From Calliopum simillimum (taxonomy: Eukaryota; Arthropoda; Insecta; Diptera; Lauxaniidae), in NCBI GenBank assembly GCA_951812925.1, contig OX638371.1:82469697-82533696 (forward strand): a stretch of DNA of 64,000 nucleotides, in the 5' to 3' direction. The position numbers were made by a program, and so were the translations under genes. The notes beneath the pieces were generated by a model. It did no database searches, was not told the DNA's origin, and saw nothing but the letters and a program-made list of their open reading frames with translations. This document shows positions 20,194 to 62,944 of this stretch, piece after piece; positions within the stretch are counted from its first letter, which is position 1, and the number at the start of each line of letters is the position of its first letter.

Positions 20194-20931
20194 TTATTCT
20201 GAAACCTTTTTTTTTCCATTACGCACCTGTTTTTCTTTGAGTTCGTAAATGAGATTCAAGATTTCTTCGCGTTTTCGTCCTGGCATTGTATGACAATATT
20301 TGATTAGCATGGGATTCTCTTTGCCTTCATAAACGTTTTTAATAAACTCCTCTATGTTCTGTAGCATAAATAAGCCGCAATCATAGCCGTTTCGTTGCTG
20401 TGGAATCGCGACATCAACAGATTTCGGCATTCCATCAAAGCATACCTCTTGTTTTAAGAATAACATTAATGCTTTGATGATTTTTCTTCGCGGATGGATT
20501 GTTAACATTTGCTGTTGGTTGAAACATTTTCCGCAGTTCATGGAATCGAGTATATAAATGACCGGATCGATTGTGTTGAACTCATTTCGTTGTCTTATTA
20601 TAGCGACGAACCAATGATGATTTTGCATTATGGGTACGATAAGGAAATTATGGTTTTTAAGATCGGCATTCATCCATGTTTTTGTCACATTTTTATATGA
20701 TTGGTTTGAAGAAGCGATAAAATCTAGCGCTTCATAGAAATTGGAATTGAAGATATGTATTCGTTTTTGTAATCCTCTATTATATATAACTTCCCTGCTG
20801 ATATATATGGAGTAAAATAACACTATATTGTCATCCAGCCACTGTCTTGGTTCTAGTGATTTTAAATCTTTGCCGGTAATGATGACGGTTTTTTCATCGG
20901 GTGGATACTCTAATACTGTTTCATTATCACA
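20194..20931 (-). CDS. Terminal exon encoding a Ulp1/SENP-type SUMO protease domain
   Basis: The exon opens after an acceptor (aacatctag) in phase 0 with Cys-Asp-Asn-Glu and runs 245 codons to a TAA. It carries the C48 (Ulp1/SENP) layout: a YPP segment near residue 10, LEPRQWLDDNIVLFY near 25 to 40 (the family's substrate-entry helix), NHHWFVAI with the catalytic His at about 106, YILDSM with the Asp at about 129, and PQQRNGYDCG with the oxyanion Gln at about 179 and the nucleophile Cys at about 185. The family cleaves SUMO precursors or removes SUMO from nuclear proteins. The YPP start and the DLKSLEP spacing look closest to the SENP6/7 (velo) branch; this is inference. It is the only large exon in the window and is preceded by micro-exons in the same frame. 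No canonical AATAAA is seen in the 450 bases after the stop; an ATTAAA lies on the minus strand near 19721. Confidence 0.9.
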   Translation of the reverse strand, partial: CDNETVLEYPPDEKTVIITGKDLKSLEPRQWLDDNIVLFYSIYISREVIYNRGLQKRIHIFNSNFYEALDFIASSNQSYKNVTKTWMNADLKNHNFLIVPIMQNHHWFVAIIRQRNEFNTIDPVIYILDSMNCGKCFNQQQMLTIHPRRKIIKALMLFLKQEVCFDGMPKSVDVAIPQQRNGYDCGLFMLQNIEEFIKNVYEGKENPMLIKYCHTMPGRKREEILNLIYELKEKQVRNGKKKVSE

Positions 20932-21003
20932 CTAGATGTTGACAAAATATGTAATTTACAATATAAGTGGAAAGAATGACATCGAATAAAATATATAACA
21001 TAC

Positions 21004-21039
21004 CACTGGTGTCCTGGGCACTGTTGGTGTGGCTCGTTC
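21004..21039 (-). CDS. Micro-exon, 36 bp, joined to the SUMO protease exon
   Basis: Encodes ERATPTVPRTPV. Acceptor ttttgcag and donor gtatgtta; phase 0 at both ends. It sits only 72 bp upstream of the protease exon, so the two splice in frame. The Pro/Thr-rich peptide would be a linker before the catalytic domain. Confidence 0.8.
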
Positions 21040-21447
21040 CTGCAAAATATATGTACATATATTTTTTTTTTTTGATTATAAATTAATTATTTTAAGCAAA
21101 CTCTTTGCGTGATTAGAAGCTTGTAGTGTTGCAAAATATAGAGGATATTATGCAGTTGCGAGACGGGTTTTGTTTTTGCACTTGAACTGCTGCAAAATCA
21201 CTATATTCTGCATATCTGAAATTCTAGTTTAACATTAATAGTAGCTATGAGTTCTCTGTTTTCGTCAGTTTTGTCAAAATTAAATCACACGGAAAAAACA
21301 TTCATTTCTCGAAAACTCGAATGGGGAGTTGTGAGAAACAAAAAAAAAAAAAAAAAAAGGTCATGTGCCAGTATGGAGACACCCCCAAACCAAATATGAC
21401 GATAAAAAATCATTCTGATAGCCCATTTTCTCGCTAACACCACCTAC

Positions 21448-22015
21448 CTCCCCTCTTAGGGGCGAAATTCCACTTGGCATAAACATTCGAAATTGTATGT
21501 ACTTATAAGTTTTGATTATTTGATGCGCTATAGCCAAATAAAATCATAAAAAATTATTTTAGCTGCTCATTCTCCCCTTAGAACTTCCTTATAACCGCCC
21601 TAAGAGGGTTGAAAGTTAATTTTTTATGTATTTTTGGGTTTTTAAGTGTTTTCATAAAAATTTTTGTTTCAAAATCACCATGAAATTGAACAGTTTTCTT
21701 AAATATCTTGAACCATTATATTCTATTTTTATGGGTTTTTTGACTCTTTCTTCTAAAAACTGGGTTATAATGCGTTGATTTACTATACGAAAAATTTCAT
21801 TAGATATTTTAGAAAATTGTTTGTTGAGTGATTTCGTAGTGATCTTTGAACAAAAATTTTTACGAAAACACTTTCAACCCTCTTAGGGCGGTTATAAGGG
21901 GGCTCTGAGGAGAGAATGAGCAGCTAAAATCTTATTTGGTTATAGCGCACCAAAATATCTGAACACATGCATACATTTTTGAATGTATACACCAAGTAGA
22001 ATTCCGAGAAGAGGT
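21448..22015. repeat. Inverted-repeat element
   Basis: CTTAGGGGCGAAATTCCACTTGG faces ACCAAGTAGAATTCCGAGAAG, with GAACTTCC..ACCGCCCTAAGAGGGTTGAAAG paired inside. Lies in the intron upstream of the 21.0-kb micro-exon. Confidence 0.7.
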
Positions 22016-22039
22016 GATAGAAATTATTGTGACAGATTC

Positions 22040-22550
22040 AATTTTATGATTGAACGTGACAAAAATCGGTTTTTTTCAAATAACTCGCTGACATTTACTT
22101 TCACAGAAAAATTTCCGATAACAGTTGGAACTTAGTCCATTTTTAATTCCATGCTAGTGTGCATCATTGACTCAAGCAGCACCGTGCGCAGGATTTGCTC
22201 TTGGGGGGGGCCTTTTCATAAATAAAAAAGAGGGGACACTATATGAAATACTAAATATGTACCATTATATATGGGTAACCCCCTTTCTGGGGGTTTTGAA
22301 CCCCCCAAAGACCCCCGTGTGCACGGGCCTGGTCTCAAGTTTCATTAAAATGCTTCCATCCTTTCATGAGAAAGCTCAGGCACAGTTATAGAAACATGTC
22401 TTTTTAAGATAATAAAAAAATCTATTACATCGTTTCATAAGAAGTGCTTTTAGCTATAACACTGTTGCCGGAATTTTTTCTGTAAAAGTAACCGTTAGCG
22501 AGTTATTTCTAAAAAAAAACTGATTTTCGTGATTATTCACCATGAAATTG
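22040..22550. repeat. Inverted-repeat element carrying a hAT MITE
   Basis: AATAACTCGCTGACATTTACTTT faces AAAAGTAACCGTTAGCGAGTTATT; the ends are GATTGAACGTGA and TCGTGATTATTCACC. Related in wording to the 17.7- and 55.7-kb foldbacks. Confidence 0.65.
22177..22331. mobile_element. 155-bp hAT-type MITE
   Basis: Ends CAGCACCGTGCGCAGG and CACGGGCCTG (inverse CAGGCCCGTG), flanked by GACTCAAG and GTCTCAAG, an 8-bp duplication with one mismatch. The interior has G-runs and C-runs that can pair. Confidence 0.65.
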
Positions 22551-22956
22551 GGCATGTATCGCCGTAGTAATTTTTCCTGCAATCTTCTAGCTTTCAATCT
22601 TCTATCTGCAATCTTTCTATTGATATTTGTTAGAAAAAGTAAGTTTTTATTTGCCACCAACTCCTATATTTGACGAATTTTCTGCGTGAGCTGCAGTATA
22701 AATAAATAAATTTACAACAAAATTAAAATTGTTGAAAAAAAAATATAAGACAATAATCTTAGTCCTAGTACCCTTACAAATCGACCAAAATATTTTGAGC
22801 TGAGCAACTAAGTTTTTACTGTGTCCGTTTCAAAAAACTCTAGTTTTAAATAAGTGGTATGAAATGCTTTTTGAAAGTCTTATCAAATGAATAACACATA
22901 CTGTAGAAATTGAAATTTTGAACCATCTTATTGTACGACAATTTTCAGAAATAATT

Positions 22957-23088
22957 GGGAGATTCCTTTAAACGTGTAAAAGCCTCGAAAACCTCGTCAA
23001 CTCGTAAAAGTTGTCAAACAGTTGTTGTTTGACAGTTTTACGAGTTTACGAGGTTTTCGAGGCTTTTACACGTTAAAAGGAATCCCCC
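22957..23088. repeat. Short near-perfect palindrome
   Basis: Arms of about 60 bp with ACGTGTAAAAGCCTCGAAAA facing TTTTCGAGGCTTTTACACGT, and a loop around CAAACAGTTGTTGTTTG. Confidence 0.8.
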
Positions 23089-23143
23089 AAATATTTTTTA
23101 AGAGGACCTAAAAAATCTGAATCAATTATGCATACTATCAAAT

Positions 23144-23402
23144 GCCAGGCACAAATTTTAAGTGGCGATGAAATGCTGGGGAAATGATCAACAAAAACTA
23201 TTACAATGGTACAAACGTGAACAAACCCGTCCTAGTTGAATATCTCCTTTTCGATTTTTAATGAGTATTTCCTATTTTACCTTTTCTTCTAGGAGACTGC
23301 CTTAGCTACAAAATGGTCGACCAATATTTGTCTACGTATATAAAGATATTTGCTGAAAGTATTTTTTGTGACTTTTATCGCCACTTAAACTTTGCACTGG
23401 GT
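23144..23402. repeat. Inverted-repeat element
   Basis: AAATTTTAAGTGGCGATGAAA faces TTTTATCGCCACTTAAACTTT; the arms are short (about 30 bp). Confidence 0.55.
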
Positions 23403-24234
23403 ATCAAACTGAGTGAACACAGTCCATTCACTATTTTTCATGGTTTAATGGAAATTTTTCAGTAGGTTTTGAGGATGTCCATATATACGTAATAATGTCG
23501 CTACGCATAAAGTTTTGGGGAAGCAACAAGTTGAGAAAATGTTCTGAGCCTTTTAATTTTAAATTCTTCATAAGTTTTCCGCTGGATTTATATACTGCGC
23601 ATGAATGGTGTGCTTATTATCGTCACCTGGATTTCTGATTTTAGATTTTTTATTTTTTCTTTTACTTTACCCGTCTTTGCTGCGTATTTCGTCTTTCTGC
23701 CATTTGTTATTTCTTGAAATGAATGTAAGCAGATCACTGTGGACCCTTTTTCTTTTACTGAACACTATGCAATTTTTGTTTTTGCTGAAAAATATCGAAC
23801 ATGTTTTAAAAATTTCACTTAATCATCTTGCTTCCAACTTACACTATTTTTAAAATTTTTTTTGTAAAACAATTTAATTATAAACTAAACTAAACCATTC
23901 GATTGAAAGAATACAGATCAAAAGTTGTTAATTTGGAATTGGTGGACGTTTTTGTTCAAAATATTATTATTATTTTTATGTATGTCAAAAATTTCAAAAG
24001 TTAAATGAACGTTAAAAGCACGTTCGGAAAAGGGAAAAAGTAATAAATAAGAGTTATTAATAAATAAGAGTTATATTCAGACCTATCATCGTATATTCGA
24101 ATTCCGTTGAAACTAAAAAGAGCATTCGAATCGCTAAAATTTGTAGACTGGGATTACGTAATCCATCCGAAACTAAAAATTTAAATTTTCCACGACTGTT
24201 ATCGGACAAGCATCGTAACTTTATTTGGACAGTG

Positions 24235-24466
24235 TTGTGCAATAATGAGTCAACCCGCTCGAAACAAGTTTTGAGATATTTACGTTTTTGTGTAGATGTC
24301 GTTGAACAAATAAGTCAACCCTCAAAAAAATTTTGTTCTTTCAACCTTTTATTAACAAAATATTGGTTAATTTTTTTTTTTTAATAGGTGCTTCTTATTA
24401 TTTAGAATCGAACTGCATTCATAAGTCGAAAAAAATTTGTTTGAGGGTTGACTCGTTATTGCATAA
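24235..24466. repeat. Inverted-repeat element
   Basis: GCAATAATGAGTCAACCC...AACAAGTTTT faces AAATTTGTTTGAGGGTTGAC...TTATTGCA. Confidence 0.6.
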
Positions 24467-25882
24467 CAGCTCCATTCAAGAAGTATTTCATTCGAGTTCA
24501 ATAATAACACTTTCGTGGTTTCTACAAAATTGGAATCTACGATGAACAGTCCTGATTATATAGGTCCTCGTCTCTATTTGTTTTAGTTAACCTCAAGCCA
24601 GTCTACGATTTTAGTCACCGATCCTTAGACCAAAAATTTTAGCAAAACCGTTCGATCGATGACAAGATAAGAAGAGATCTAATTACAACAAAAAAGCCGG
24701 AGGATTATTTCTGTGAAATTTTGAGTCCTACCTAGGCCATATCTCCTCAACTAGATAGATGGATAAAAGATATATAAAATAAAGTAAAGACTTTAAAATT
24801 AAGATTAAAGGGTTGTAAACCGAAGTTTAGACTACCAAAATCGTTCAGTTAAACTTACACGCCGACTCGACTAGCAATTCTTCCACGTTTAGCATTCATT
24901 GAAAGTCTCATTTCTAAGTTCAAACTTATTTGAAATTAGAAAATGCAGAAAGTTTTTGCATGTTTGTATGCTAAAAAATGAATACCGGAAAGTCCATCCG
25001 AGCTAGGTAAAATATACCAACTCCCGAAATATTTTCAATATAACTGTTTAAGTAACTTCCATACCTAAATTGGAGCGTTAGACCAATATAATAGCAGTAG
25101 AAATACTGTTAAAGAGTTATAGAGAAAGCAATTTTGACTCTTTTAGTACACTTTTTACTGTACTATGAAATTAAGTTTTGTCGGTTAAATCTTTTTGGCA
25201 GTTATGGCTCCATATTAAATTTGATATAAGGTACTCTTCATTCATTAAGTGAATAGGTGAAGGTCGATTTCTATAAGGACTTCAAGACTATGGATTCCTA
25301 AGAAATATTTTAGTTGAGCGCTTCAAACATTCCGGCTTCTTCGGTTTTTTTGTCACCCCCTAAGATCCGTAGATATCAGTCGATATGCATATTTTGAGCT
25401 CTTTTTAACAATGACATTTCAGTCAATTGCAGTAGCTTAACAAGTTTCAGTGGCGTTATTTCCCAATTGAGGGCATACTTACTTACTTTCGTTTAAACTA
25501 AGTTTTATTAAACTCGTTTAAATTGTTAAACTCGTTTAACAATGAAATGACTTTTTAGTGCGAGTTTATCTCCAACTCGATACTTTGATTTTTTGTAGGC
25601 ATTACTGAAAAATGACGTTAAAAATGACATTGACGAATTTGAAGTGGAGTTTGTTTATGTAATTTTTTTATTTTAAAACTTCAAGATAAATGAAATACGA
25701 AGATTTTCTGCTGTAAATTTTGGAATTGTTTTCATTTATTTGTAATAATAAAGACAAATGTTTATTGCATCAATTGAAATTATGAAATAAACATGAATAA
25801 AAATTAAAATACAGAAATTTAATTTATATTTGTTTTCTGCCAAGACCACCGCCGCCAAATGTTCTAGCCTTTACGTGCTATT

Positions 25883-26125
25883 TTATAATTCAAATCCTCC
25901 GGTATTGTGTACTTTTTTTGACCAAAAAATTGTTTCAATGTCACCGTAGGAGTTAATGAGCACAATAGAATGCTTTGGCCCGGTACCGTTAATTCCTAAT
26001 CGCAATCGACAAAGGTCATTGAACTTATTGTTGGTCAACTCGAAACCTTGTGAAATTTTATCGTGTTTTATTTCATGGATATACATTTTACGTGGCTCAC
26101 GAAAAGTCAAATGCCGTAAAACTAA
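25883..26125 (-). CDS. Candidate gene fragment, terminal exon
   Basis: After an acceptor (gggtctag) the frame reads LVLRHLTFREPRKM... for 80 codons to KKVHNTGGFEL and a stop. It joins in phase 0 to the exon at 26.25 kb across a 126-bp intron. Two AATAAA signals lie on the minus strand at about 25740 and 25765, so this looks like the 3' end of a real transcript. Function unknown. Confidence 0.3.
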   Translation of the reverse strand, partial: LVLRHLTFREPRKMYIHEIKHDKISQGFELTNNKFNDLCRLRLGINGTGPKHSIVLINSYGDIETIFWSKKVHNTGGFEL

Positions 26126-26251
26126 CTAGACCCAAAAAATAATGCGTCCATATCTTCTATTGCTGTGGCAAACACACTGCACCTCGGCTCCACATCGCGT
26201 CTACATAAGATACACCCATAAAACGCAGCAGATCTTTTGCCTTATTTACAC

Positions 26252-26374
26252 GTTTGTTACCCGGACTAATCGATCATGGAATTTCTCTAAATCTGCCTCA
26301 TCACCTGATCCTTTAGCTTTCTTAAGCGCTTCTTCTTCTTCAAGCCGTTCAGCATGTTTTTCATTTGTAGTTTT
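26252..26374 (-). CDS. Candidate gene fragment, charged helical exon
   Basis: An open stretch of 41 codons starting just after a stop, including HAERLEEEEALKKAKG and ending DRLVRVTN before a gtgtaaat donor. No start codon or acceptor is clear. It lies inside an inverted-repeat element (25.4 to 26.6 kb), so it may be a captured host gene piece. I do not recognise it. Confidence 0.25.
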
Positions 26375-26881
26375 TTAAATTTATTAATTTTTTGTTTTGA
26401 CAGCGATTTGAAAATTTAATTATTTTTTATTTACGACAGCAACTGTCAAAATCATGAAGTATGTTAAACGAAGTTTAAATGGGCAATATCGTTCAGTTAA
26501 ACTTAGTTTAAACTACGTTTAAAATTCACTGAAAAACTCATTCCTGAGTTTAAACTTAATTTAAACCAGAAAATGAGTTAAACTTGCACTGAAAAACTGG
26601 CCCTTAGTAGTATTGAGGTGACGAAATATTTTTACTTAATTTTTTATTAATTTTTTTGATTTTTATTAAAATTATTTTATAAAATATAATCGTATGCCAA
26701 ATAAATTTCCAATTAAAAACGAATTGCATAAGACTTTATAGCTTTTATAACATTAAATAAAAAAATAATTTTTACGTAGATTTTGATATGCCTAAATTTC
26801 TGATGGTATTACTTTGCGAAAAAGCGAAGATACCCTTTTCCATGATGGATATATTACTCCAGTCGTTTTCTGTTCAATTGC

Positions 26882-26926
26882 TCAAAAATTATGCAATAAA
26901 TTGAAAATAACACCAATACAAAGTTG
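26882..26926 (-). CDS. Small candidate gene, second coding exon
   Basis: After a 60-bp intron with a fine polypyrimidine acceptor (tctcttttcag) the frame continues QLCIGVIFNLLHNF and stops at TGA. The whole product would be 76 residues. AATAAA signals on the minus strand lie about 215 bp downstream (TTTATT near 26642 and 26664 on the plus strand). Confidence 0.35.
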   Translation of the reverse strand, partial: QLCIGVIFNLLHNF

Positions 26927-26986
26927 CTGAAAAGAGAAAATAAAAAAAATTCATTTTAGAATACATTTTTAAAATTATAAACTCAC

Positions 26987-27172
26987 TTGATGATCTTTGT
27001 GTAGGAAACTCATTTGGTAAATGTCTTTGTCTATGTTGCTATTTTCAAATCTAGCGCATAGTTTTCGTGTAACTAAACAAAAATTTTCTTTTGTTGGCAG
27101 CAAATATAAACTATCCCCAGATACTGTGGTAGCTTCATTAATATTTATTGATAAATGAAGGTTAATCTTCAT
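26987..27172 (-). CDS. Small candidate gene, first coding exon
   Basis: Begins with ATG (MKINLHLSININEA...), 62 codons, ending FLHKDHQ before a consensus donor (CAA|gtgagttt). The same exon seems to start at an acceptor at 27317 (ttttatttag) behind a possible 5' UTR exon ending at 27385 (donor gtaagc). I do not recognise the protein; it has no signal peptide or obvious motif. It could also be a gene fragment or a noncoding transcript. Confidence 0.35.
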
Positions 27173-28933: not shown

Positions 28934-29056
28934 TACCATGAAAAAAAAAAAACAATTTAATTCACTTTCTACTAAAGCTCAGAAAACCAAACTATTAACT
29001 TAGCTTAAGTGAAATTTTATGTTTGACTACATTTTTTTAATTCTGCACACACTTAC

Positions 29057-29141: not shown

Positions 29142-29171
29142 ATTTGCAAATTTTTCCGCAAAAGCCCTCAT
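29142..29171 (-). CDS. Micro-exon, 30 bp
   Basis: Encodes MRAFAEKFAN. Acceptor tttcgtag, strong donor gtaagtaa, phase 0. The next well-supported exon downstream is at 21.0 kb, so the following intron is about 8 kb and filled with repeats. Confidence 0.75.
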
Positions 29172-29672: not shown

Positions 29673-29699
29673 CTCTTGTTCCTTTTCTTGAGCTGTTTG
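29673..29699 (-). CDS. Micro-exon, 27 bp, Gln/Glu-rich
   Basis: Encodes QTAQEKEQE. Acceptor ttttatag, donor gtattt, phase 0. A near-perfect hairpin (29755 to 29900) lies 56 bp upstream in the preceding intron. Confidence 0.75.
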
Positions 29700-30201: not shown

Positions 30202-31310
30202 TAATTTTTTTTTTTTTTTGTTATTTTGTTTTTTTTTTTAATTAAAAATAAGCGCTTCATCATTTTTCTTTTTTTTTTATAAGCAGCAATAACATTATTA
30301 AAAGCGAATCCGTTTTGAATTCGTTTTTTATGTAGGGTAAGGGAGGGAAATATGGACCACTCATCGTTCTTTTTTAAATAAAACCCAAAATACATAAAAC
30401 AAAACAATTAATTTTATGTCATTCAGTAAAGGAAACTATTTACTTTTATTCTGATTCACTTTTAGATTAATATCTCATCAGGATAAAGAAAAAAAGTTAA
30501 AAAACTGAAAATACTCAAAATGAAGATCAAAAAAAAGTGTAGTGTAATATGGACCATATAGTCCACGGTGCTCTTGAACAGTCGATAGGTTTTTTGAATA
30601 TGTGGAGAAAATCTGTGAATGGGGTTTCATTTGTATTAGCTTAGTGGTCTGAAAAATGCAAACCCCAAAATCGTAGCTGATCATCCCCGCGAAATATCGC
30701 AAAAATGCATATCCCATATAAAATAAAAAAAAATTCAGAAAAAAACGCAACAAACAAATATAAAAATAGTTATTTTTAATGTATTTTGCAATGCTTAATC
30801 CGAATCCGGCCTTAGAATTGCTGTATCTTATACGGTTTTTGAGATATCTAGGCCTAAACAAGGAAAAAAAGCCGACGCTATGTTTTATTGTTGTGTTTTG
30901 GAGCTATACAACAGGACGTATATCCATAAATTCTGATGCAGAAATGGAAAGCTTTAATTAATGTTCTAAATCTAATTCAAATAATGTCGATGTCTTTATT
31001 TTTCTCAGAGATATCCTAACCTAAAAAGTTAAAAAAGTGCTAAAAACGTGTTTTGTCATTATTTCAGTCTACGATATTTCAGAGAAAAATTAAGCTATTG
31101 TCATAATTTAAATGCGGTTTTAAAGAAAAAGATTGCAGCTTTCAGATAATGTATCAAATTTTGTGTATGAATTAGGGATTTCAGTCCCGGGATTCCGGGA
31201 TCCCGGGATCCCGGGATTCGAGCCTTTTTGCAGTCCCGAAAATCCCGGGATTAGTGCTACCAATCCCGGGATTTCTTTTGTAAGTTTTTTAGGTTAGAAA
31301 AATTGTTAGA

Positions 31311-31655
31311 ATGTTCCAAAAATCACCAACAAAAAGCGAAGTCTTACAACATTATGTTAAAATTGAACATAATAAAGAGCTGAAGTTAATCGTAGATTGC
31401 AAAATGAGATGGAGTAGTCTTTTAGATATGCTGCAGCACTTTATTATGCTTGAGAGTAGCATAAAAACAGCTTGTATTGACTTAAAGGTTTCTTCGATCC
31501 ACTGTAGCGAACTTAAAATTATTGAACAATTAGCTCGAACTCTTCAACCAATCAAAATCACTATTGATATTATAAAGAAAGATAAATCTGCTTTGAGTAA
31601 TATCATTTTTGCTAAAAGGCACTTCAGACTAGTTCTCTTATGTTTTTCTGTATGA
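31311..31655 (+). pseudogene. hAT transposase fragment, central part
   Basis: Contains KMRWSSLLDMLQHFIMLESS followed by a LKIIEQLARTLQPIK helix, the conserved RW.S...ML.R...L and L..L...L.P segments of hAT transposases (hobo/Ac/BED group). The N-terminal zinc finger and RNase H start are missing. Confidence 0.75.
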
Positions 31656-35004: not shown

Positions 35005-36690
35005 TACGTACATAAATAACATTAAAGAAAATTTAATTTTTAGTGTATAAATACCAGTGGTCCTCGGTTGGGTGTAGCGCAAGTTGCTGTTTGCTATAAA
35101 TTAAATATTAGTTATTATTTACTCAGGTGAATAATATATGAGGAACGTATGGAAAAGCTAAAACAAAAGGGTTTAATTAAACACAGTTAAATTGGATTGT
35201 TTTATTAATAACCACGAATTAGCTGTGTGAATGTTGCCGTTTTACACTGAATATTAACCGGATTTTAACATAGTGATCACACATTTTCAGCGAAAAAAAA
35301 TGCCGCACAGTGTGGCGAGTGCGGCCAAAAGGGTCAAGTTAAAGTCTGAAATATAATCTCAAAAAGGAAACTAATAAAACGAGATCCGTCAGTAAAAAAA
35401 CGTATGGATCGAGTTTTCAGTTAAAATCTATTTTTTACACATATTTATGAATGGAGGAATATATTTTTGCTGGGTTGCCTATCAACATGTGGCTGCTAGT
35501 ATTTTCAATTGACTCATACAGACTCTGAGTTCAAAAATTTCAAAAGTCGACTTTTTACTTGTTATCGGAAAAAATATTTTTGTGGTTAGGAATTTTTTTA
35601 TTTTAACAATATCGACATGTGTGTGTTTTTATTATTTTAATTTCATCAATAAAACATCTTTAAAAAACCAAAATTAATTGAAAAGTCGTAGCATAAATTC
35701 AATAGTTTTGCGGACTTTTCTAAAAGTGTTGCATTCCACTTTATATCCACTTCCGTTTTGAAAGGGGAATCGGGAACAGGGCGGTATATCATTTCAATTT
35801 TGAACTCTAACGTCCATAACTTTTATGTTTCTTAACCGATCAGAATAAATCAAAGCTTTAAAGCTTAAAATTCCATCTTTTTAATTACATAGTTTTTAAT
35901 TTTTAAGTAAAAGTGTGCGTGAATTTCCTAAATAGAAATATTTTACTTTAATTTTAAGTTATAACTGCTTTATTTTTTTTCTTCTTATCAGATCGTTAAA
36001 TGTTAAAAAAAGGTTAATATTTAATCTTTTTCATTGTATAAAAAACCACGCCCATTTTCTAAAATTTTCATAATCTTAACAAAAGGCATAACTGTGCAAA
36101 ATTTTATCAAAATCGAATAACGTTTACTAGTTTTTGCCGCTCTATATATGGGCATGCGACACTGTGTGCTGACTTGAGCCTGGTATGAAATTTACTGAAC
36201 AGCCAACAAGTAATCTTTGAAGGAAAAATATCGTGGGTTTGCTACTACAAATAGATGTGTATGTTACTTATCTACACGGGTTAATAACGTTTTGAAAATT
36301 GAAAAACTTTCTTTTATGGTAGATGCCAGGCTGACATATTCAAACTATATCAAATAATTCACTATGTATATATTGCATTTTGAATTATAGTTTACTTTGT
36401 ATCGTCGAAAGGCGTGTCCTCGAAATAATTTCGTTCACTTCCTATCCCTCAAGTAAACTTGCACAACATAGCTATTTCCAAAGGTTGACAGTCACACAGA
36501 TGCAGTTTGCTCTTGATGTAGTGGATGGTGTACCATTATGCCACTCTGTGCGTCTTTTAAAAAGACAACTATGACTCCTTTTCTCGCTCGAGTAGTTTTT
36601 TTTTAATGAACGCTCCTCATTTTTAAATTAAATTAAATACATCGATTCTTCTTCTCCTAATTCTTCTCTAAAAATTTAAAAAGTACATAC
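35005..36690. other. Intron stretch, little recognisable
   Basis: No exon meeting the splice and phase criteria is seen. The part from 36290 to 36600 is a decayed piece of the 142-bp-repeat family (AAAGGCGTGTCC..ATTTCGTTCACTTCC). The rest is unique-looking AT-rich sequence. Confidence 0.5.
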
Positions 36691-36735
36691 CTGTCTCGAC
36701 TGTTCTCCTAGTGCTTGTGCTATATTTCGCCTGAC
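36691..36735 (-). CDS. Micro-exon, 45 bp, RR type (duplicate of the 38.0-kb exon)
   Basis: Encodes VRRNIAQALGEQSRQ. Acceptor ttttatag, donor gtatgtac, phase 0. It aligns without gaps to the 38.04-kb exon, with 9 of 45 bases changed. Intron flanks are also alike (acctataaaataatta on the upstream side), so the pair arose by tandem duplication. Confidence 0.85.
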
Positions 36736-37114: not shown

Positions 37115-37165
37115 CTCACCAATTGACATATGACGTCCACCAGAAAGCGGTGATCGGCAAGGTTC
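37115..37165 (-). CDS. Micro-exon, 51 bp, CP type
   Basis: Encodes EPCRSPLSGGRHMSIGE. Acceptor ttaaaacag, donor gtatgtat, phase 0. Its two ends align with the 72-bp exons at 39.3 and 40.8 kb, with about 21 bp missing in the middle, so it is a shortened member of that type. Confidence 0.8.
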
Positions 37166-38039: not shown

Positions 38040-38084
38040 CCGTCTCGGCTGTTCTCCAATTGCTGTTGCTAATTTTCGCCTGAT
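38040..38084 (-). CDS. Micro-exon, 45 bp, RR type
   Basis: Encodes IRRKLATAIGEQPRR. Acceptor ttttatag, donor gtatgaat, phase 0. Duplicate of the 36.69-kb exon: seven codons differ and all seven change the amino acid. Confidence 0.85.
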
Positions 38085-39263: not shown

Positions 39264-39335
39264 CTGATCAATTGGTATCTGAGATCCACTAGGGGGTGCT
39301 CGTGGAACGACGTTGGTCGGTAATGGGCAAGAAAC
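39264..39335 (-). CDS. Micro-exon, 72 bp, CP type (duplicate of the 40.8-kb exon)
   Basis: Begins VSCPLPTNVVPRAPP and ends SGSQIPIDQ. Acceptor tataacag, donor gtatgtat, phase 0. Against the 40.78-kb exon, 56 of 72 bases match, and both have CP near the start and PP in the middle. Confidence 0.85.
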
Positions 39336-39539: not shown

Positions 39540-40560
39540 TAGTGTATCGAAAATAATTTATTTTCACGAAATCACGCTCTAGATCAAAGACTTTATATTG
39601 ATGGCTCAAGTAAATCGACGACACTGAAACGTGTAAGCGATGGAGTTACGATGGGAGTGGGATACAGAAATGCTAGTCTCACTTTTATAGCAATTCAAGC
39701 AGATTTCAAAGAGGCATGTGAAATAGCAAATAAATTATTAAGCCTTTCTCAAAAGCACGCAAAGCTTGTTCGTCAGAACTTGACTCATATAAGAAGCTAT
39801 TTAAAGAGAAATGGAGTACCGTTCGCGAATGAGCAATTTACTGGTGAGGTGTGTCTATACGGTAAGCTTCATCACAGCACTTTTCAAATGAGTGAAGAAA
39901 GTCTTTAAAGTGCGGTCGTATCGTTCATGCTGTTCATGTCGTGAACCAATGCCAAAGACTTCAGTTAAAAGATGACTTCTCCCATTTTCGATTTGTTAAC
40001 TGTATCAAGAAAAACAAACAGACGTGGATGATCGTCTGAAGAACTTTAGAGAGTTGGTGCATAATTCTTATGGTCACGATATAAAAATCTTATGAACTCT
40101 ATACAGCAGAGCAGAATGGGTCTACAGGACGAGAGTTGAGAACTATAGTAGAGACTTTAAGGAATATGGTGCATTTTTGAAGTATGGATCAGAAATTTTG
40201 TGCGGAAGCCAAAAGTGTAGCGTTTTTGCGCTAAATCGTACGGAAACGAGAATAGTTACTGAAAAAACTATGGTGCAATAAAAAACTCGTTTTGACAACT
40301 TTTATCCTTTTGGAAAAGGAGTGTTTGTACCTACATTTTCCAAAGGAAAATATGAAGAAGCTGATTAAAAAGGCTGAAAGGTGTATTTTTACGGGATACG
40401 ATAAGAAAGTAAGGCTTTTGTACTTGGAATAAAGCTACAAAGAAAACTCAGATCACTTGCGATATTAATGAGCTATCTACTTAGTATCAGTGAAATGCAG
40501 TTCAAAGCTCAGAAAGTTGTTTATGACGCCGAAGAAGTAGGTAATATCTGATGATGCTAA
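39540..40560 (+). pseudogene. Ty1/copia retrotransposon pol relic
   Basis: Fragments in all three plus frames: a polyprotein piece with GSSKSTTLKRVSDG, a GAG-pre-integrase-like stretch (GEVCLYGKLHHSTF), and an integrase part with shifted frames (HVVNQCQ-like zinc end, YGHDIK, a GKGVFVP..FSKGKYEEADKKAE piece and CIFTGYDKK). Many stops and frameshifts; no LTRs found. Sense strand opposite to the host gene. Confidence 0.7.
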
Positions 40561-40778: not shown

Positions 40779-40850
40779 CCGATTAATTGGTAACTGAGGT
40801 CTCCTAGGGGGTGTTGGTGGACAGACGTTGATCCGAATTGGGCAAATAAC
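40779..40850 (-). CDS. Micro-exon, 72 bp, CP type
   Basis: Begins VICPIRINVCPPTPP and ends RRPQLPINR. Acceptor tataacag, donor gtatgtat, phase 0. Thirteen codons differ from the 39.26-kb copy and all are nonsynonymous. A copia relic on the plus strand occupies the intron between the two copies. Confidence 0.85.
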
Positions 40851-42435: not shown

Positions 42436-42456
42436 CGGTCTTTCTGGCACACTTGG
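42436..42456 (-). CDS. Micro-exon, 21 bp
   Basis: Encodes PSVPERP. Acceptor cttttcag and a near-consensus donor gtaagttt, phase 0. One of the shortest exons in the gene. Confidence 0.75.
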
Positions 42457-43287: not shown

Positions 43288-44752
43288 TACCATACAAATA
43301 CGCCCAAACTTGCTTGGTGAACACCTTATATTCCGCCAGCGAGAAGGTAAGTAAATCTTGAGACGTTAAAACTCGAAAAATTTAATCCCTGCCTCTACCT
43401 CCTTATGCGATGGTATTTTTTTTTTGCTCCACGCTACAAGAGGTAAATTTTTGGCTAGTTTTAACGTCACTAAGCTAATAGGCAGCCCCTTTCAACTGGC
43501 ACTGACGATATTTACCTTTCGGCCGACGCACTATGGATTTTTTTGTACTAAAAAGTGCACACAAAAATAATTCACTGCAAGGACACTTTTTTTTTAAAAA
43601 ATCAACTGCAAAATTAAAGGCTATACATTGAGCTATCTGAAAAGATTCCCGCTTTTGCTAGCACTTGATCCACAAATTTGGGACAGAGGTCGAAATCTCA
43701 TAAATTTAAAAAAAAACGGTTTTTCTGTTTAAAAATGTTAGTCGCATTAAACGCAGGAGTTATATATGAATAAATTTGTATGTATTCAATCAAATCAAGT
43801 AAGACAAAATCAACTCAAAGTGAAAATGGGCGGTGCCACGCCCCAAAAACAAATTCGTCATATCTCCGAAACTATTAGACACAGATAGATAAGATTCGGT
43901 ATGTTTGTAACAGGCAAAGAAAGAAATAAAATTCACTGAAAAAGTGGGCGGTGCCACGCCCTACAAATATAAAACTTACCATATCTCCGAAACGGTTAAA
44001 GCTATCGGGCTGAGTTTTGGTATGTATATAAAAAATAGTAAGTCAAATAACATTTGCTGAAAAAAAGGGCGGTACCACACCCAAAAATAAACATAACCTC
44101 ATTAATTGCGCCTCTGTTCTATAGGAAACAAGTTCATTCATATAGCTCTGCTTTTGGGCGTGGCACCACATATTTTTTCAGCAGACATTATTTGTCTTGA
44201 TGACTTTTATATACAAACCGAATTTCATCCACATGAGTCAAATAAATTCGGAGATATGATGTGTTTTATAGTTGTGGGGCGTGGCACCGCCTATTTTTCT
44301 AGTAAATATTATTTCTTTCTATGCCTGTTAAAAACATACCGAATATTATCTATCTGCGTCTATTAGTTTCGGAGATATGACGAATTTGTTTTTGGGGCGT
44401 GGCACCGCCCATTTTCACTTTGAGTTCATTTCATCGTAATTGATTTGATTGAATCTTATAAATTTATTCATGTATCACTCCTGCATTTAATGTGACTAAC
44501 ATTTTGAAACAGAAAAACCGTTTTTTTTCAAAATTTATGAGATTTCGACCTCTGTCCCAAATTTGTGTATCAAATGCTAGAAAAAGCGGGCATCTTTTCA
44601 AATAGCTCAATGTATAACCTTTAATTTTGCATTTGATTTTTGAAAAAAAAAGGGTCCGTTTAGTGAATTATTTTTGTGTGCACTTTTTAGTCAAAAAAAA
44701 AAACCATAGTGCGACGGATTGTAAAGTGTTCACCAAATGGGTTTGTATGGTA
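43288..44752. repeat. Large foldback with tandem units in each arm
   Basis: ACCATACAAA...TTGGTGAACACC faces GTGTTCACCAAA...TTTGTATGGT. Each arm holds three units of about 120 bp keyed by GGGCGGTGCCACGCC (43828, 43945, 44067; reversed near 44158, 44278, 44395). Confidence 0.8.
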
Positions 44753-45101: not shown

Positions 45102-45140
45102 CTGTCTGCATAAACTCTGCCTCCAATCTGCTCGCCTCAC
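45102..45140 (-). CDS. Micro-exon, 39 bp, RR type
   Basis: Encodes VRRADWRQSLCRQ. Acceptor aattatag, donor gtacgata, phase 0. It starts VRR and ends RQ like the 36.7-kb exon, but is two codons shorter and has diverged in the middle. Confidence 0.8.
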
Positions 45141-46999: not shown

Positions 47000-47020
47000 T
47001 GGTGTGCTAAATGATCTCGG
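47000..47020 (-). CDS. Micro-exon, 21 bp
   Basis: Encodes PRSFSTP. Acceptor ttccttag, donor gtaagttg, phase 0. Same length as the 42.4-kb exon, and both begin and end in Pro, so it may be its duplicate. Confidence 0.75.
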
Positions 47021-48399: not shown

Positions 48400-48456
48400 C
48401 TGTCTAAATGCACATTCCCTCCTTTCTGCGCTAGGTCCTGTTGTATGTCGCCTCAT
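48400..48456 (-). CDS. Micro-exon, 57 bp, RR type
   Basis: Encodes MRRHTTGPSAERRECAFRQ. Acceptor aatcgtag, donor gtaattga, phase 0. It shares the xRR start and the RQ end with the other RR-type exons. The intron to the next exon is about 260 bp. Confidence 0.8.
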
Positions 48457-50044: not shown

Positions 50045-50107
50045 CAATCCAGTTTGACATTGCGGCCCCCATGAAGCCGATGGTTCTTGGGATGGACAAG
50101 TTGAGTG
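50045..50107 (-). CDS. Micro-exon, 63 bp, CP type
   Basis: Begins HSTCPSQEPSASWG and ends PQCQTGL. Acceptor tttcgtag, donor gtaactat, phase 0. Cys-Pro near the start places it with the CP type; it follows the RR-like exon at 50.6 kb. Confidence 0.8.
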
Positions 50108-51145: not shown

Positions 51146-51855
51146 TATTTCGGGATTGGGCAACACTAATGTCAATAGCTAAAATCTGGCAACACCATAA
51201 TAAAGTTTGACATTTTTTAGCATAAACGTTCTCAGAACGTTTTGACGTACGACCATCATTTGTGTTGCTTACAGTGACTTGAAAAAATCAATTTGGCAAA
51301 AAAATGGAATTAACTCGTGAGATTTTTCGTGCGATCATTTTTCACAACTTTCGACGTGAATAATCACGACAAGAGTGCATCGATGAACTTAAACCTTTGT
51401 ATGGCGATGAAGCACCATCCTATAGCACTGTGAAAAACTGGTTTAATGAATTCAATCGTGGCCTTCGCTCACTCCAAGACGAATTTCGTGAAGGTCGTCC
51501 AAAATCAGATATTGTTCCGGAAACCATTGATGCTGTGCGCCAACTTATATTGCAATATCGTCATGTGACCTATCGTGAGATTGAGACAACCTTAGGCATT
51601 AGTGGGACCAGCATACATTCAATATTGCATGAAAACCTGGCCGTAAAAAAGGTTTGTTCTCGTTGGAAACCCCATAATTTATCAATTGCTTAAATTTCCA
51701 ATGGAAAAATTGATTTTCTTAACTCACTGTAAACAAAACAAATAGCACTTGTACATCAAAACGCTGTGAGTACGTTTATGCTAAAAAATGTCAAACTTTA
51801 TTATGGTGTTGCCAGATTTTAGCTATTGACATTAGTGTTGCCCAATCCCGAAATA
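51146..51855 (+). mobile_element. Internally deleted mariner transposon
   Basis: About 95 bp of inverted repeat (TATTTCGGGATTGGGCAACA...) at both ends with TA just outside each. About 710 bp in total against about 1.3 kb for a full mariner. Confidence 0.85.
51304..51693 (+). pseudogene. mariner transposase N-terminal fragment
   Basis: Opens MELTREIFRAIIFHNFRRE then an in-frame stop, then continues QECIDELKPLYGDEAPSYST, WFNEFNRG and TYREIETTLGISGTSIHSIL, the two helix-turn-helix DNA-binding motifs of mariner. It ends after HNLSIA at a stop, with the whole DDD catalytic part deleted. Confidence 0.9.
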
Positions 51856-52639: not shown

Positions 52640-52693
52640 CTCTTGATCTGTTAGATAATCGCCTTTTGATGATCCTGGGGCTGAACAAGTCCT
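52640..52693 (-). CDS. Micro-exon, 54 bp, CP-like
   Basis: Encodes RTCSAPGSSKGDYLTDQE. Acceptor aataacag, donor gtattgtt, phase 0. Cys at position 3 and the Gly/Ser middle place it loosely with the CP type. Confidence 0.75.
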
Positions 52694-53860: not shown

Positions 53861-53899
53861 CAGTCGTTCTGCTACTCTTGCGGCATTTTGTTGAGATTC
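53861..53899 (-). CDS. Micro-exon, 39 bp, helical
   Basis: Encodes ESQQNAARVAERL. Acceptor attttcaag, donor gtacttac, phase 0. Confidence 0.8.
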
Positions 53900-55455: not shown

Positions 55456-55485
55456 CGATGTAGTTGCACATTGCTGTCTTCTTTC
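55456..55485 (-). CDS. Micro-exon, 30 bp
   Basis: Encodes ERRQQCATTS. Acceptor ataagtag, donor gtatgtat, phase 0. The upstream intron (to 58.86 kb) is filled by a nested foldback element. Confidence 0.75.
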
Positions 55486-58660: not shown

Positions 58661-58861
58661 TCAAAAGAAAATGATTTTGAATCTAAAATTTTCAACACTT
58701 AACGGCGCTAAAAGCAAACACGTTTGTTTTAAAATCTTGTGTTTTTAAATCAAAAGTATTGCTTTTAAATCAAAAGCATATACGGTTAAAGTAAATTTCT
58801 TTTTTTAGTGTATAACTTACGACTTGTCGACTTACAAATAATAAATAAATAACATACACAC

Positions 58862-58897
58862 CCCTTTTGCAATAACATCTGCTAAATTTCTTCTCAC
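58862..58897 (-). CDS. Micro-exon, 36 bp, RR type
   Basis: Encodes VRRNLADVIAKG. Acceptor tttcatag; donor gtgtgtat, weaker than the others. It is close to the 36.7-kb exon over its first half (VRRNIAQAL versus VRRNLADVI). Confidence 0.7.
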
Positions 58898-58957
58898 CTA
58901 TGAAATTAATGGAAATTTACAAAATTTTTCATGTATTCCAAAAATTTTTTTTTAATA

Positions 58958-59415
58958 ACCGTATTCACGATCTTGTTGCATCGTAGCAAATGCAAAATTC
59001 TTTGAAATTACAAAAACAAATTCTATTGATTTTTCAAAAGCAAGAGTAAAGACCAAATTTGCAAGACAAAAACCTATTGCACGATTGATTTCCAAGAGTC
59101 TATTGTGATTGATTTTATTTTTTCGTTTGTGATTGGTACAATTGCTTAGCGACTTTTATTTTTTTGACAACAGTTTTTGTCACAAATTAACAAAACTGTG
59201 ATTTTCTTCTCAATAACTCAAAAACATTCAAAGAACTTTCTTTTAACTCAAAATGAGATACCAAATAAATTTTAAGTTCAAAAAATGTTTGACAGCAAAA
59301 CAAAAAACAGCTGTCCTGAAACGTTTGCAATAGCAATTTCCAACAGTGTATGCTCACAGTTATTTACTCTTGCAAATTTGCATTTGCTACGATGCAACAA
59401 GATCGTGAATACGGC
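58958..59415. mobile_element. TA-flanked MITE with CCGTATTCACGATC termini
   Basis: CCGTATTCACGATCTTGTTG...ATGCAAA faces its exact reverse at the right end; about 40 bp of terminal repeat. 458 bp and noncoding. Confidence 0.8.
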
Positions 59416-59771
59416 TAATATGAGTTGTTTTTAAATAACCTTCTTAATCACTAAAAACGGAACATGTTTTAGCACGTACTCATGCACACTTTTGTCTGTA
59501 GAAACTTTGAAAAACTAAAACTTTATCGCTTTAAGTGTACAAAAAAGGATCATGAAATTCGAAAATGGTCGAGTTAGTTATAAAAAAGTTATAATAAATA
59601 TGAATGAAAAATGTAGAATCAAATTACTAAATAAAAGTCGACAAAAATTAGAAAAACAGTTAGAGATTTTCTAAAAATGAAAATTCGGTCAAAGTCCGTT
59701 TATAAGTAAAACAAAAGGCTGAAGAAAATTTTAGGTATTTTTAGATAATGTTTGTAAAAAATGTTATTTAC

Positions 59772-59804
59772 CCACTTGACACGTTCTTTCTCAGGATTAT
59801 TCAA
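59772..59804 (-). CDS. Micro-exon, 33 bp
   Basis: Encodes LNNPEKERVKW. Acceptor ttttatag, donor gtaaataa, phase 0. Confidence 0.75.
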
Positions 59805-59955
59805 CTATAAAATAAATTGGTAGCATTAATTTCGCTATACTCATATAAAGAAATTTTTAAAAATACTAATGTTCTTTAATAAAATATTCGGAGTACAGCG
59901 AAAAATTTATTTTATTTAATATAAATTTTTTGCTATCATATATAAATTTAAATAC

Positions 59956-59994
59956 CATTATATCTTCTTGTTCTTCTCGACGCCTTCTCATGCT
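59956..59994 (-). CDS. Micro-exon, 39 bp, Arg/Glu-rich
   Basis: Encodes SMRRRREEQEDIM. Acceptor ttctacag, donor gtatttaa, phase 0. Strongly charged; with the exon at 60.53 kb it would form a helical or coiled stretch. Confidence 0.8.
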
Positions 59995-60528
59995 CTGTAG
60001 AAATAGAGATCTTGTTTTTAGTAATTTTATAGAACGATTGTCAATTATATGGGTGATACTCTGAAAAATCTACCATGCCTTTTTTTGTTCTCAATTATTT
60101 TTTATAAATTTTTTATAACTTAAGGATAAAGAATATGAACGCCTTAACTTCTGGAATAGGTTTAAGTTTAAACCATTTAAAAAATTTGACTTCACTTGTT
60201 TTCAGTATATTTTGAAAAATAAGTTAAAAATTTTGAAAATTGGAGCAAACTTGACTGTGTTAAATAAATAGTTAACATATAAATTTGAACTGTATATATA
60301 AATTTAAGCCACGCGGCATGGAATGAGGCTTTTTTCGGAGAACCACCCCTATATCCAATATACGGGTTAATACAAATTCCGGATAGGCCAAATAATTTTT
60401 AAAAATATATTTTTTTTTATATATATAATTTTTTTGAAATTGTTGATGAAATTATCAATTTTGTTTCCTTTTTAGAAATGAACCAGTATTTCTTAGCTTA
60501 AAAAGCAAAATATTTAATGTATAATTAC

Positions 60529-60561
60529 CAGCTCCCTTTCTTGTTCTCGTCTTATTCTTTC
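60529..60561 (-). CDS. Micro-exon, 33 bp, Arg/Glu-rich
   Basis: Encodes ERIRREQEREL. Acceptor ttccatag, donor gtaattat, phase 0. All residues favour a charged helix. Confidence 0.8.
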
Positions 60562-60741
60562 CTATGGAAATAAATTGAAAAGAATTTCGTTATTGAATAA
60601 TGATTTTCTATGTATGGTTTTATCAACAAGAATCTCCCAAAAATCTCAATAGTCCCATCTTCGGCTTAGTTTTTTTGTCAGTAGTCCCTTCAAAAACTAA
60701 AATAAATTCACTAATGACTTCAATTGTTTAAAACTATTTCG

Positions 60742-60891
60742 TCGCTGACTTGTAAAACGGCCCTAATTGACATTTATTTTTTTAAAATCCAGTTTATTAC
60801 ATATTCCTGAAAACCAACCTTAATACACCTAAAATATGTAATGAACTGGATTAAAAAAAAATGTCAATTAGGGCCGTTGTACAAGTGAGCG
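60742..60891. repeat. 150-bp hairpin
   Basis: ACGGCCCTAATTGACATTTA...ATCCAGTT.ATTACATATT pairs with its reverse across a loop of about 40 bp. Confidence 0.85.
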
Positions 60892-60938
60892 AAGATATAA
60901 AATAAAAATAACAGAAAAAAAAACACAAAAATATCTTT

Positions 60939-61216
60939 TTTCGTTGTATTTTGCGATGCTGAATCCGAATCTGGAAAATACAAAAACACTTGTAACTTTT
61001 CCAGCTGTGAAGATTCAGACGGCAAACTTTGTGTGGGTATTTCGAATTCGCAATGATAAATATTTTTGTTCAAAAATACCTTGTCTAGTTATACAACCTC
61101 CGATATTGCAAAGAACAGTAATTTCTTAACTTTTAGGTTAAAATATCCCAAATATTGTACGAGGTGTAGCGATTTTGAAGCAAGATTCGAACTGAGCATC
61201 GCAAAAAACATCGAAA
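60939..61216. repeat. Inverted-repeat element of the GCTGAATCCGAATC family
   Basis: TATTTTGCGATGCTGAATCC faces GAGCATCGCAAAAAACATCG. The words match the arms at 30.78 kb (CAATGCTTAATCCGAATCCGG) and 63.47 kb. Confidence 0.65.
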
Positions 61217-61276
61217 ATTACTAGTTTTGTTAATTTTTGTAATTTTCAAAATAAATTTAAAACTATGTAAAAATAC

Positions 61277-61300
61277 CTCTTCAGCTTGTTGTTGCAGCAT
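61277..61300 (-). CDS. Micro-exon, 24 bp, Gln-rich
   Basis: Encodes MLQQQAEE. Acceptor ttttgcag, donor gtattttt, phase 0. Confidence 0.75.
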
Positions 61301-61399
61301 CTGCAAAATAAATAAAAAATTTGTGAATAAATGACAAATGTGTCCTAGGTCCCACACAACAGGGAATTTAGTTTTGGCAGTATTTTGATATACACATAT

Positions 61400-62880
61400 C
61401 ATATACAGTGAGAAGCAAAACTATCAGCATGTTTGCTGCTATAGCGTCCATTCCGCTTACATGACCAACAAGTTATATGAAGCAAACGGAAGTTTCGAAA
61501 ACTTACTGACTGACAGTTTTGCACCACTTTAACTGATTTGCATACAGATCTGGAACGTGAAATTTTCCTAGTTTAAAAAAACTTGGGCATAAGATAAATT
61601 TTGATAATTAAAGCAAAAAAAAAAAAAACAATTTTACTATTTGTGCTTGATATCAAGGTCTTTTGTGCTTGTTTATCAAAAAATAAATAGTTTCATCCGT
61701 ATGTTTATGATTTCCAATATGCTTATGTCATTTATTGTTTACATAGTTTCTGCACAAGACCTATAATCTGATATTTTTTTTTGTTAAAAATAACCAGGAA
61801 GGACTTATGACCGGCATTCTAGACTACTTTGTGGCGTGTATATGGGCATATCCGAAAATAATCTGCTCTTATATGACCCAGGTCTTAAGAAACATTTTTT
61901 TTCCATGTTTAATTACCAAATGTGGTGGAATATATTCCCAGACGTATAAAATGAAATTCCCAATAGGTGAACAAAAAAATTTCGACCCGAGATGGTGTCA
62001 CAGGTCCTAAAATTCTGAAAAAATTCTAGCAAATTCTTTGATGAAAAATAAATTGATTTTGTTACGATATTTTTTTAAATTAAGCGCCCCCTGCCAAGCA
62101 AAAAATTAAAAACGAAAAATTTGGGGTAAAAAAATGCGATTTTTGGCGATATGCGTTACAATACAATCGTGCATAAAGTGCTGTTCGCACGTTACAAAAA
62201 ACAGAAGTCGTTGTGAAGATCAATGTACATTTTCAAAATTTTTTGGGAATTTTCCAGTATAAACGAAAAAAGCAAAATCCTCCAAAGAAAGAAGAATATT
62301 TGAGCATATCGAAACTGCTTTTGAGGGAATCAAAGAGTCCTTCATTCGTACACTCGTCTTGCGCACGTTACGTTGCGAAAGTTAAAATTTTTATTTTATA
62401 TATATACATAGGCTATCGAAAATTGATGTAGCCAATTTCCAATTGACTTAAGCACATTATATTCGCTTGATTTATTTGTGGAAAAGGATGTAAAGATGGG
62501 CAGTGCACACAAAAGTAAAATTTTTTCTAGGCACCGCATCTCACGGTAAAAAAACACTGTTGCAGCTCAACCACTGCATCGGTTTTTATGAAATTTGGAA
62601 TGCAACGTTATTAAAGACATTTTGTTATGTAGCTGCCGGTGCAACGCCCCTAAAAGCGAAATGCATTTCCGCGGCTAAACCGGTGGACCAATTTTTAGGA
62701 AACTCGGAATGGGGATTGAACCCTTAGAAAGCATATTAAAAACTTTAGTTATTTTGTGGGCAATACCACTAGCCTAGTGGCAAAATGCGCTTTTACGGCA
62801 ACTTTATAATTTTTCTCTTGGTTGACCTTTTTTCGGATATGCCCATATATTATTACAAAGTATATTCTTTTTAAGTTTAA
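61400..62880. other. Intron stretch without a recognised gene
   Basis: Starts with CAGTGAGAAGCAAAACTATC, which looks like a lone Tc1-type end, but I find no partner. No exon with good splice sites is seen. Open frames here (for example near 62.5 kb) have no coding look. Confidence 0.4.
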
Positions 62881-62887
62881 TACATAC

Positions 62888-62944
62888 CCTTTTTCTTTCT
62901 TCGGCTCTTGCAGCTCTTCCCTGTTGTAAGCGTAATCTTCTCTT
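62888..62944 (-). CDS. Most 5' micro-exon in the window, 57 bp, basic
   Basis: Encodes KRRLRLQQGRAARAEERKR. Acceptor ctttatag, donor gtatgtat, phase 0. It starts behind an acceptor, so it is not the first exon; the start codon must lie beyond position 64000. Confidence 0.8.

Follow-up and report, generated by a model that had tools for sequence, protein, structure and literature searches.

The window analysed here is a stretch of 64,000 nucleotides (nt) from the lauxaniid fly Calliopum simillimum (assembly GCA_951812925.1, contig OX638371.1, hereafter C4; C4:82469697-82533696, in a genome of 690 Mb). On its minus strand, it holds a SENP/Ulp2-type protease exon and a long series of very short exons in a common phase. 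All micro-exons listed below lie on that strand, and coordinates without a contig are those of the window. The protease exon occupies 20227..20931, spanning 705 nt and being in phase 0 at both ends if the donor CAG|gtgcgt is used (score 2.9; next in-frame GT, -9.0). The original prediction had described a 738-bp exon, as the open frame continues past this donor-like site to a stop at 20194; the end probably lies at 20227 instead. Upstream, a predicted intron of 72 nt (20932..21003), with a weak acceptor (score -11.7), separates the protease exon from the last micro-exon before it, ERATPTVPRTPV (21004..21039; score 25.5). This micro-exon, about 70 bp before the protease, has same-place counterparts in the protease copies L004-L007, and none was found in L002, L003 or L008.

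The protease exon matches PF02902 with an E value of 2.3e-24 (86.9 bits, against a curated cut-off of 20.7). The His-Asp-Gln-Cys set, originally predicted to be intact, is so: His106, Asp129, Gln179 and Cys185 are invariant in all nine aligned copies, in agreement with an alignment to SENP7. By sequence, SENP7 and Ulp2 are the best solved relatives, and the best Foldseek matches were Ulp2 (E 6e-12) and SENP7 (E 3e-11), at template modelling scores of about 0.5 and for a model with a mean predicted local distance difference test (pLDDT) of 60. With the single exon as query, no homologue was found in a large protein set; a nine-sequence profile retrieved nine distant C48 proteins, 23-31% identical. 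SENP/Ulp2-type domains remove the small ubiquitin-like modifier (SUMO), and the conserved domain points to SUMO removal as the putative activity. The genome contains at least 29 matches to the window exon, which is a lower bound, and some copies elsewhere contain stops. On C4, eight SENP/Ulp2-type protease exons fall within the array or close to it, all of them on the minus strand at 82.431-83.414 Mb. A further close copy, L005 (C4:58690583-58694302), is 24 Mb away and preceded by the micro-exon ERSSVARQPV, perhaps marking a second array. The ratio of nonsynonymous to synonymous change (dN/dS) is 0.31-0.69 among the protease exons A, B, C and L004-L006, and 0.89-1.05 between L007 (L7; C4:83219801-83220541) and these six; L007 also carries DCA, not DCG, at the catalytic Cys.

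The micro-exons were sought with a splice-and-codon model whose candidates had to be open in frame, a multiple of three in length (3n) and in phase 0, and counts were made at scores of at least 4, 8 or 10. Because the scan demands open frames, the openness of the listed exons is no evidence for them. At a score of at least 10, the minus-trained model gave 110 minus-strand micro-exons against zero on the plus strand, and the same training applied to plus-strand or Markov sequence gave 2-15 self-fitted "exons". Training can thus fit noise, and the fair test is a held-out one, in which a model trained without 20932-63000 was applied to that segment. It found 18 phase-0 micro-exons on the minus strand versus none on the plus strand at a score of at least 10, and 24 versus one at a score of at least 4; ten Markov controls of the same length gave 0-1 each. 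Among off-phase lengths at the higher cut-off, 3n+1 yielded four minus and no plus candidates, and 3n+2 none on either strand. Held-out samples inside the array, totalling 58.7 kb, gave 30 minus versus 0 plus at a score of at least 10.

Applied to 271.7 contiguous kb, the final model listed 125 micro-exons on the minus strand versus one on the plus strand at a score of at least 8, with three protease exons sitting among them. When all nine phase classes competed, 109 of 116 exons fell into class 0-0, under a codon table derived from frame 0. Over the same 271.7 kb, the median length was 42 nt; 47 of the 125 exons measured at most 36 nt and three exceeded 150 nt, the longest having 642 nt. The GC content was 45% in micro-exons versus 32% across the region. 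The 642-nt array exon (C4:82551684-82552325; L014), long among micro-exons, consists of degenerate repeats around "RPRTPAACAAPSSRTSIG". An untrained comparison scan, using a consensus splice matrix, returned 47 minus versus 6 plus short open phase-0 candidates over the 271.7 kb at its middle threshold (44 versus 6 over 263.7 kb). For 3n lengths, it gave 42, 35 and 18 candidates in frames 0, 1 and 2 of the minus strand and 5, 6 and 8 on the plus strand; for other lengths, it gave 12-16 and 3-6, respectively. The minus-strand excess is highest in frame 0 of the 3n lengths, and we read the raised minus-strand counts in the remaining classes as the result of further sites near the same exons. The micro-exons are therefore real as statistical sequence objects, with a common phase class.

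Between 21004 and 62944, the final model places 23 minus-strand micro-exons of 21-72 nt at a score of at least 8, and 22 of these are also in the held-out list; 48400-48456 is missing from the latter, where 41534 and 48102 appear in its place. The in-phase array upstream of the protease that the original prediction described is thus confirmed by the held-out counts, and its "at least 26" micro-exons were about right, with 21-24 confirmed. The lengths of 21-72 nt, divisible by three and open in one frame, likewise hold, though the scan requires the latter two properties. Beyond ERATPTVPRTPV, the series continues with the weaker MRAFAEKFAN (29142..29171; score 9.2, held-out 8.0), QTAQEKEQE (29673..29699; 24.2) and QTATCATPNRGPL (35055..35093; 24.1). 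A doubtful candidate, RRIRRRRID (36641..36667; 9.0), is just 23 nt from its neighbour VRRNIAQALGEQSRQ (36691..36735; 28.9), which is a copy of IRRKLATAIGEQPRR (38040..38084; 19.8); EPCRSPLSGGRHMSIGE (37115..37165; 20.6) lies between the two copies. A second such pair is formed by VSCPLPTNVVPRAPPSGSQIPIDQ (39264..39335; 27.5) and its copy VICPIRINVCPPTPPRRPQLPINR (40779..40850; 26.0). PSVPERP (42436..42456; 33.5), at the top of the untrained scan, is followed by VRRADWRQSLCRQ (45102..45140; 10.9, held-out 6.8), PRSFSTP (47000..47020; 17.1), MRRHTTGPSAERRECAFRQ (48400..48456; 17.8), HSTCPSQEPSASWGPQCQTGL (50045..50107; 18.5), RTCSAPGSSKGDYLTDQE (52640..52693; 16.6), ESQQNAARVAERL (53861..53899; 17.9), ERRQQCATTS (55456..55485; 21.8), VRRNLADVIAKG (58862..58897; 15.2) and the weaker SMRRRREEQEDIM (59956..59994; 8.2, held-out 5.3). 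The list closes with ERIRREQEREL (60529..60561; 24.8), a helix-type exon of 33 nt, MLQQQAEE (61277..61300; 23.8) and KRRLRLQQGRAARAEERKR (62888..62944; 22.9), which is not the first of the array, more micro-exons lying upstream.

The window also holds other features. A Mos1-like transposase fragment with the helix-turn-helix domains HTH_32 and HTH_48 lies on the plus strand at 51364-51693, between array micro-exons. Open frames of 120-132 codons at 16264-16662 (minus), 31293-31655 (plus) and 39543-39908 (plus) are perhaps transposon pieces; a Pfam scan of these three frames gave no match above the cut-off. Tandem repeats with 142-bp units occupy 6362-6726 and others with 121-bp units 44156-44415; the latter hold GC-rich stretches such as GGGCGTGGCACC, and similar text occurs in L019.

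Eight further micro-exons lie 3' of the protease exon in the window, at 1214-15369 in the final model. Moving away from the protease, these are the weaker RSSPEACRGYSSPNVYNQKSSCYMDQ (15292..15369; score 9.0), PQCPSAQPPNQQSCPL (13093..13140; 29.1), PNYQYSQQ (12866..12889; 20.0), ASYDNYQ (11214..11234; 20.9), QQGAAADNCSHYQQP (7629..7673; 34.0), ACCPPEQS (7434..7457; 26.4), QQGPAADNCSHYQQP (3759..3803; 31.3), a copy of 7629-7673 with 95.6% identity, and DCCPPDQM (1214..1237; 22.4). In all nine protease copies, the best in-frame donor within the last 160-200 nt is at one common place, reading CAG|GTGCGT in six, AAG|GTGCGT in L5, TTT|GTAAGT in L7 and CAG|GTGTGT in L8. These sites score 0.2-3.6, with the next best at -0.5 or lower in eight copies and no other in-frame donor candidate listed for L7b; they are modest donors, given that the 10th percentile for micro-exon donors is 2.8. 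Only 76 nt after the donor-like site of protease 3 comes the micro-exon SQARRQPPCPTPMA, with a T run before its acceptor, and 184 nt after that of protease 1 comes RPRLKEAVQM. One exon family flanks protease A, with four members beyond it and two among the last four exons before it. In six gaps between a protease and the next exon, no phase-0 initial exon scored above 5.1, the search covering coding starts in phase 0; the candidate with this score is two codons long. On account of the donor-like site in nine of nine copies, the 76-nt intron and the exon family around protease A, the protease exon is probably internal and not the end of a gene. Together with the 3' micro-exons and the empty gaps, this speaks against the gene ending in one protease exon that had been proposed: an in-phase modular region beside a SENP-type exon is supported, whereas its role as the N-terminal half of a one-protease gene is not.

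The array also proved not to be confined to 20194..62944, as micro-exons continue past both sides. Beyond the upper end of the window, they extend to C4:82597897 before protease C and to 82691607 past C. A 10-kb sample taken halfway along the 0.44 Mb that were not read ahead of the next protease contained nine on the minus strand versus none on the plus strand at a score of at least 4, and 6-kb samples at 83.32 and 82.33 Mb contained three versus none and five versus none, respectively. The protease at 83412628 is accompanied by two micro-exons. Samples at 82.15 and 83.60 Mb yielded none on either strand, and one at 70.0 Mb yielded none on the minus and two weak ones on the plus strand; no micro-exon reached a score of 10 in these three outside samples. 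Since the inside samples are positive and those at 82.15 and 83.60 Mb are empty, the array probably lies within 82.155-83.600 Mb and spans at least about 82.33 to 83.41 Mb. By extrapolation from a density of 0.46 exons per kb, an extent of about 1 Mb would correspond to some 500 micro-exons.

Comparisons among copies offer some insight into the way this locus evolves. A, B and C have about 790-800 bp around the protease exon in common (flanks of up to 6 kb compared, 1.4 kb 3' of A), and the synonymous divergence (dS) of the exon among them is 0.19-0.30. Beyond the protease, the likeness of B to C amounts to an 84-bp colinear match (71%) together with non-colinear pieces 57-187 bp long, and A matches B and C at one short non-colinear place each; B and L4 have about 1 kb in common. 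That A, B and C arose by tandem duplication of a whole gene was rejected because the likeness is limited to these segments; exon-sized copying or gene conversion would both fit. Micro-exons, too, recur with their flanks, in exon-holding matches 110-792 bp long, and when 118 exons were used as queries for copies, the hits listed coincided with other predicted exons, bar one with a 2-base overlap. In five module pairs, the flanks match each other better than the exon does (Fisher p 0.0015, 0.0094, 0.044, 0.13 and 0.0031), these pairs having been chosen for alike flanks and different-looking exons and the first two being of common history. Conversely, all 15 pairs of the APAANT family are more alike in the exon than in either 100-bp flank, and several recent micro-exon copies show the same direction. 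Because the picked pairs disagree with the APAANT family and the recent copies, accelerated exon change is not claimed as a general trend.

Pro, Ala, Gln, Ser and Arg are abundant in the joined micro-exon peptides. A Pfam scan of those of B and A returned a single match, below the cut-off (E 0.38), and no signal peptide was noticed, with no predictor applied and no sure first exon found. One length class, spotted first and tested afterwards, stands apart: in the 13 exons of 33 nt (11 residues), helix formers make up 0.73 of residues versus 0.41 in 112 others (p 1.1e-5), and proline accounts for two of 143 residues. Eleven residues correspond to three helical turns; thus, these exons may extend charged helices stepwise.

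The catalytic set is conserved, a donor-like site is present in nine protease exons, and micro-exons occur in every inside sample. From these observations we lean, without great assurance, towards one modular SUMO-protease locus, that is, a one-strand, phase-0 array of about 1 Mb in which about eight protease exons would serve as inner modules. The micro-exons would be spliced to one another, and because nearly all are 0-0, any subset would keep the frame and multiple isoforms are possible. A protease exon could be included, skipped or, when its donor goes unused, made the end of the message; inclusion inside some messages and termination of others would fit the donor, tail and acceptor data. 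The product would be an extended and largely disordered chain, built of Pro/Ser/Gln/Cys-rich modules and charged helical ones, that tethers at least one deSUMOylating domain to specific partners, with exon choice altering the tether without loss of frame, and the locus would evolve by copying, or conversion, of exon-sized DNA pieces. In its most far-reaching form, which we regard as doubtful, the array would be one transcription unit exceeding 1 Mb, whose roughly 500 micro-exons and eight or so optional SENP exons would yield either many SUMO proteases with differing tethers or several protease domains per chain. Its exon number would exceed that of titin.

Several observations count against a modular locus of this kind. 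About 330 kb were read within the interval, so the continuity of the array is sampled and not traced. SUMO-interaction-like motifs are not enriched in the micro-exon peptides (two seen versus 4.5 expected by shuffling), and the low mean pLDDT makes the predicted protease structure one of low confidence. A search for spliced retrocopies with 33 of the 58 exons of the B stretch found none; all 14 matches were single exons on the C4 minus strand, and its sensitivity was low, as only 13 of the query's own exon places were recovered. Protease acceptors are weak in seven copies (-3.2 to -12.4) and strong in L7b and L8 (6.4 and 7.7), for which reason general weakness as a sign of optional use was dropped; a comparison with micro-exon acceptors is biased, the micro-exons having been selected by score. 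Further points bear directly on a competing explanation that we consider a real, if lesser, possibility, namely that tandem micro-exon genes each have their own terminal protease exon and the 3' micro-exons belong to the next gene. Every protease frame continues past the donor-like site to a stop, and in L004-L007 a short, partly alike tail precedes that stop, so that in these copies the protease exon could be the final one. Within the array, candidate start exons precede protease C (C4:82682458-82682532; score 12.3; MMRETGDSEIFSQSFLDEENTSYDP, then gtaagtaa) and protease A (C4:82456381-82456404; score 14.6; MSCECPND, then gtaagtat), and separate genes are therefore possible; moreover, composition differs among the stretches before A, B and C. 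However, the 76 and 184 nt that follow proteases 3 and 1 leave little room for a promoter and first exon, none of the six gaps has a phase-0 initial exon above 5.1 (coding starts in that phase being what was sought), one exon family runs across protease A, and the tail after the donor has a 2-nt frame shift in B and has diverged in A and C.

It is improbable, in our judgement, that the array is a decaying or non-coding relic, whether a former micro-exon gene or transposon-spread material that is not expressed. The transposase fragment and other frames in the window introns, the stops in some protease copies elsewhere and the lack of a recognisable last micro-exon in C would suit such a relic. 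The APAANT exons would as well, and these also tell against a modular coding locus, with no third-position preference among their substitutions and dN above dS in six of 15 pairs. Yet the dN/dS values among A, B, C and L004-L006 (those of L7 being higher), the catalytic set invariant in nine copies and the APAANT exons more alike than their flanks in every pair speak against it. Chance splice-like motifs in AT-rich DNA can be dismissed almost entirely. Short exons with loose consensus sites commonly arise by chance, and a model trained on plus-strand or Markov sequence does produce some self-fitted ones, but the held-out, opposite-strand, Markov and outside-region controls rule out chance exons, and the candidates keep to one strand and almost one phase class.

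If RNA confirms a modular locus, it would represent an uncommon route to a highly modular protein. In-phase micro-exon arrays would then provide, on a megabase scale, a kit of parts for directing a catalytic domain of the SUMO pathway to its targets, and a genetically accessible insect order would become available for studying the recognition and ordering of tiny exons in their hundreds. Apart from this locus, a dense GST gene cluster was noted at C3:115.49-115.57 Mb, with 19 of 48 GST_N matches. One GST gene of this genome has a solved "Glutathione s-transferase 6B" as its best match (293.7 bits), followed by a protein named LD04004p; these are house fly and Drosophila proteins, in keeping with a higher fly.

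No described case of such a locus was found among the papers listed in the literature searches, most subscription papers lying outside them. Genes composed mostly of micro-exons are known in schistosomes and aphids, as micro-exon genes (MEGs) and bicycle genes, where they act as effectors. Schistosome MEGs have symmetric micro-exons of 6-36 bp that make up most of the coding part, their products are almost always secreted or membrane-anchored, splicing variation is regarded as the point, and exon duplication and shuffling have been proposed (PMC5825161). The fly array resembles MEGs in its short symmetric exons and in the exon copying proposed. It differs from them in its median of 42 nt, its embedded catalytic domain and its extent of about 1 Mb; 109 of 116 fly exons are symmetric, but 47 of 125 are within 36 nt. 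Aphid bicycle genes have many small internal exons, almost all in phase 2 and about 17 per gene, and fast-changing products (PMC9168663). Many small internal exons in one phase are common to both systems, and the fly array is set apart by phase 0 (109 of 116 exons being 0-0), by far more exons and by its enzyme domain. With SENP6, SENP7 and Ulp2 (C48, PF02902), the fly exon shares the catalytic domain and its His-Asp-Gln-Cys set; unlike them, it occurs about eight times in or near a micro-exon array and has a donor-like 3' end. Finally, insect Dscam and mod(mdg4) are loci with many optional exons in one phase. In contrast to theirs, the fly pieces are tiny, varied in kind and length, and accompanied by repeated enzyme exons.

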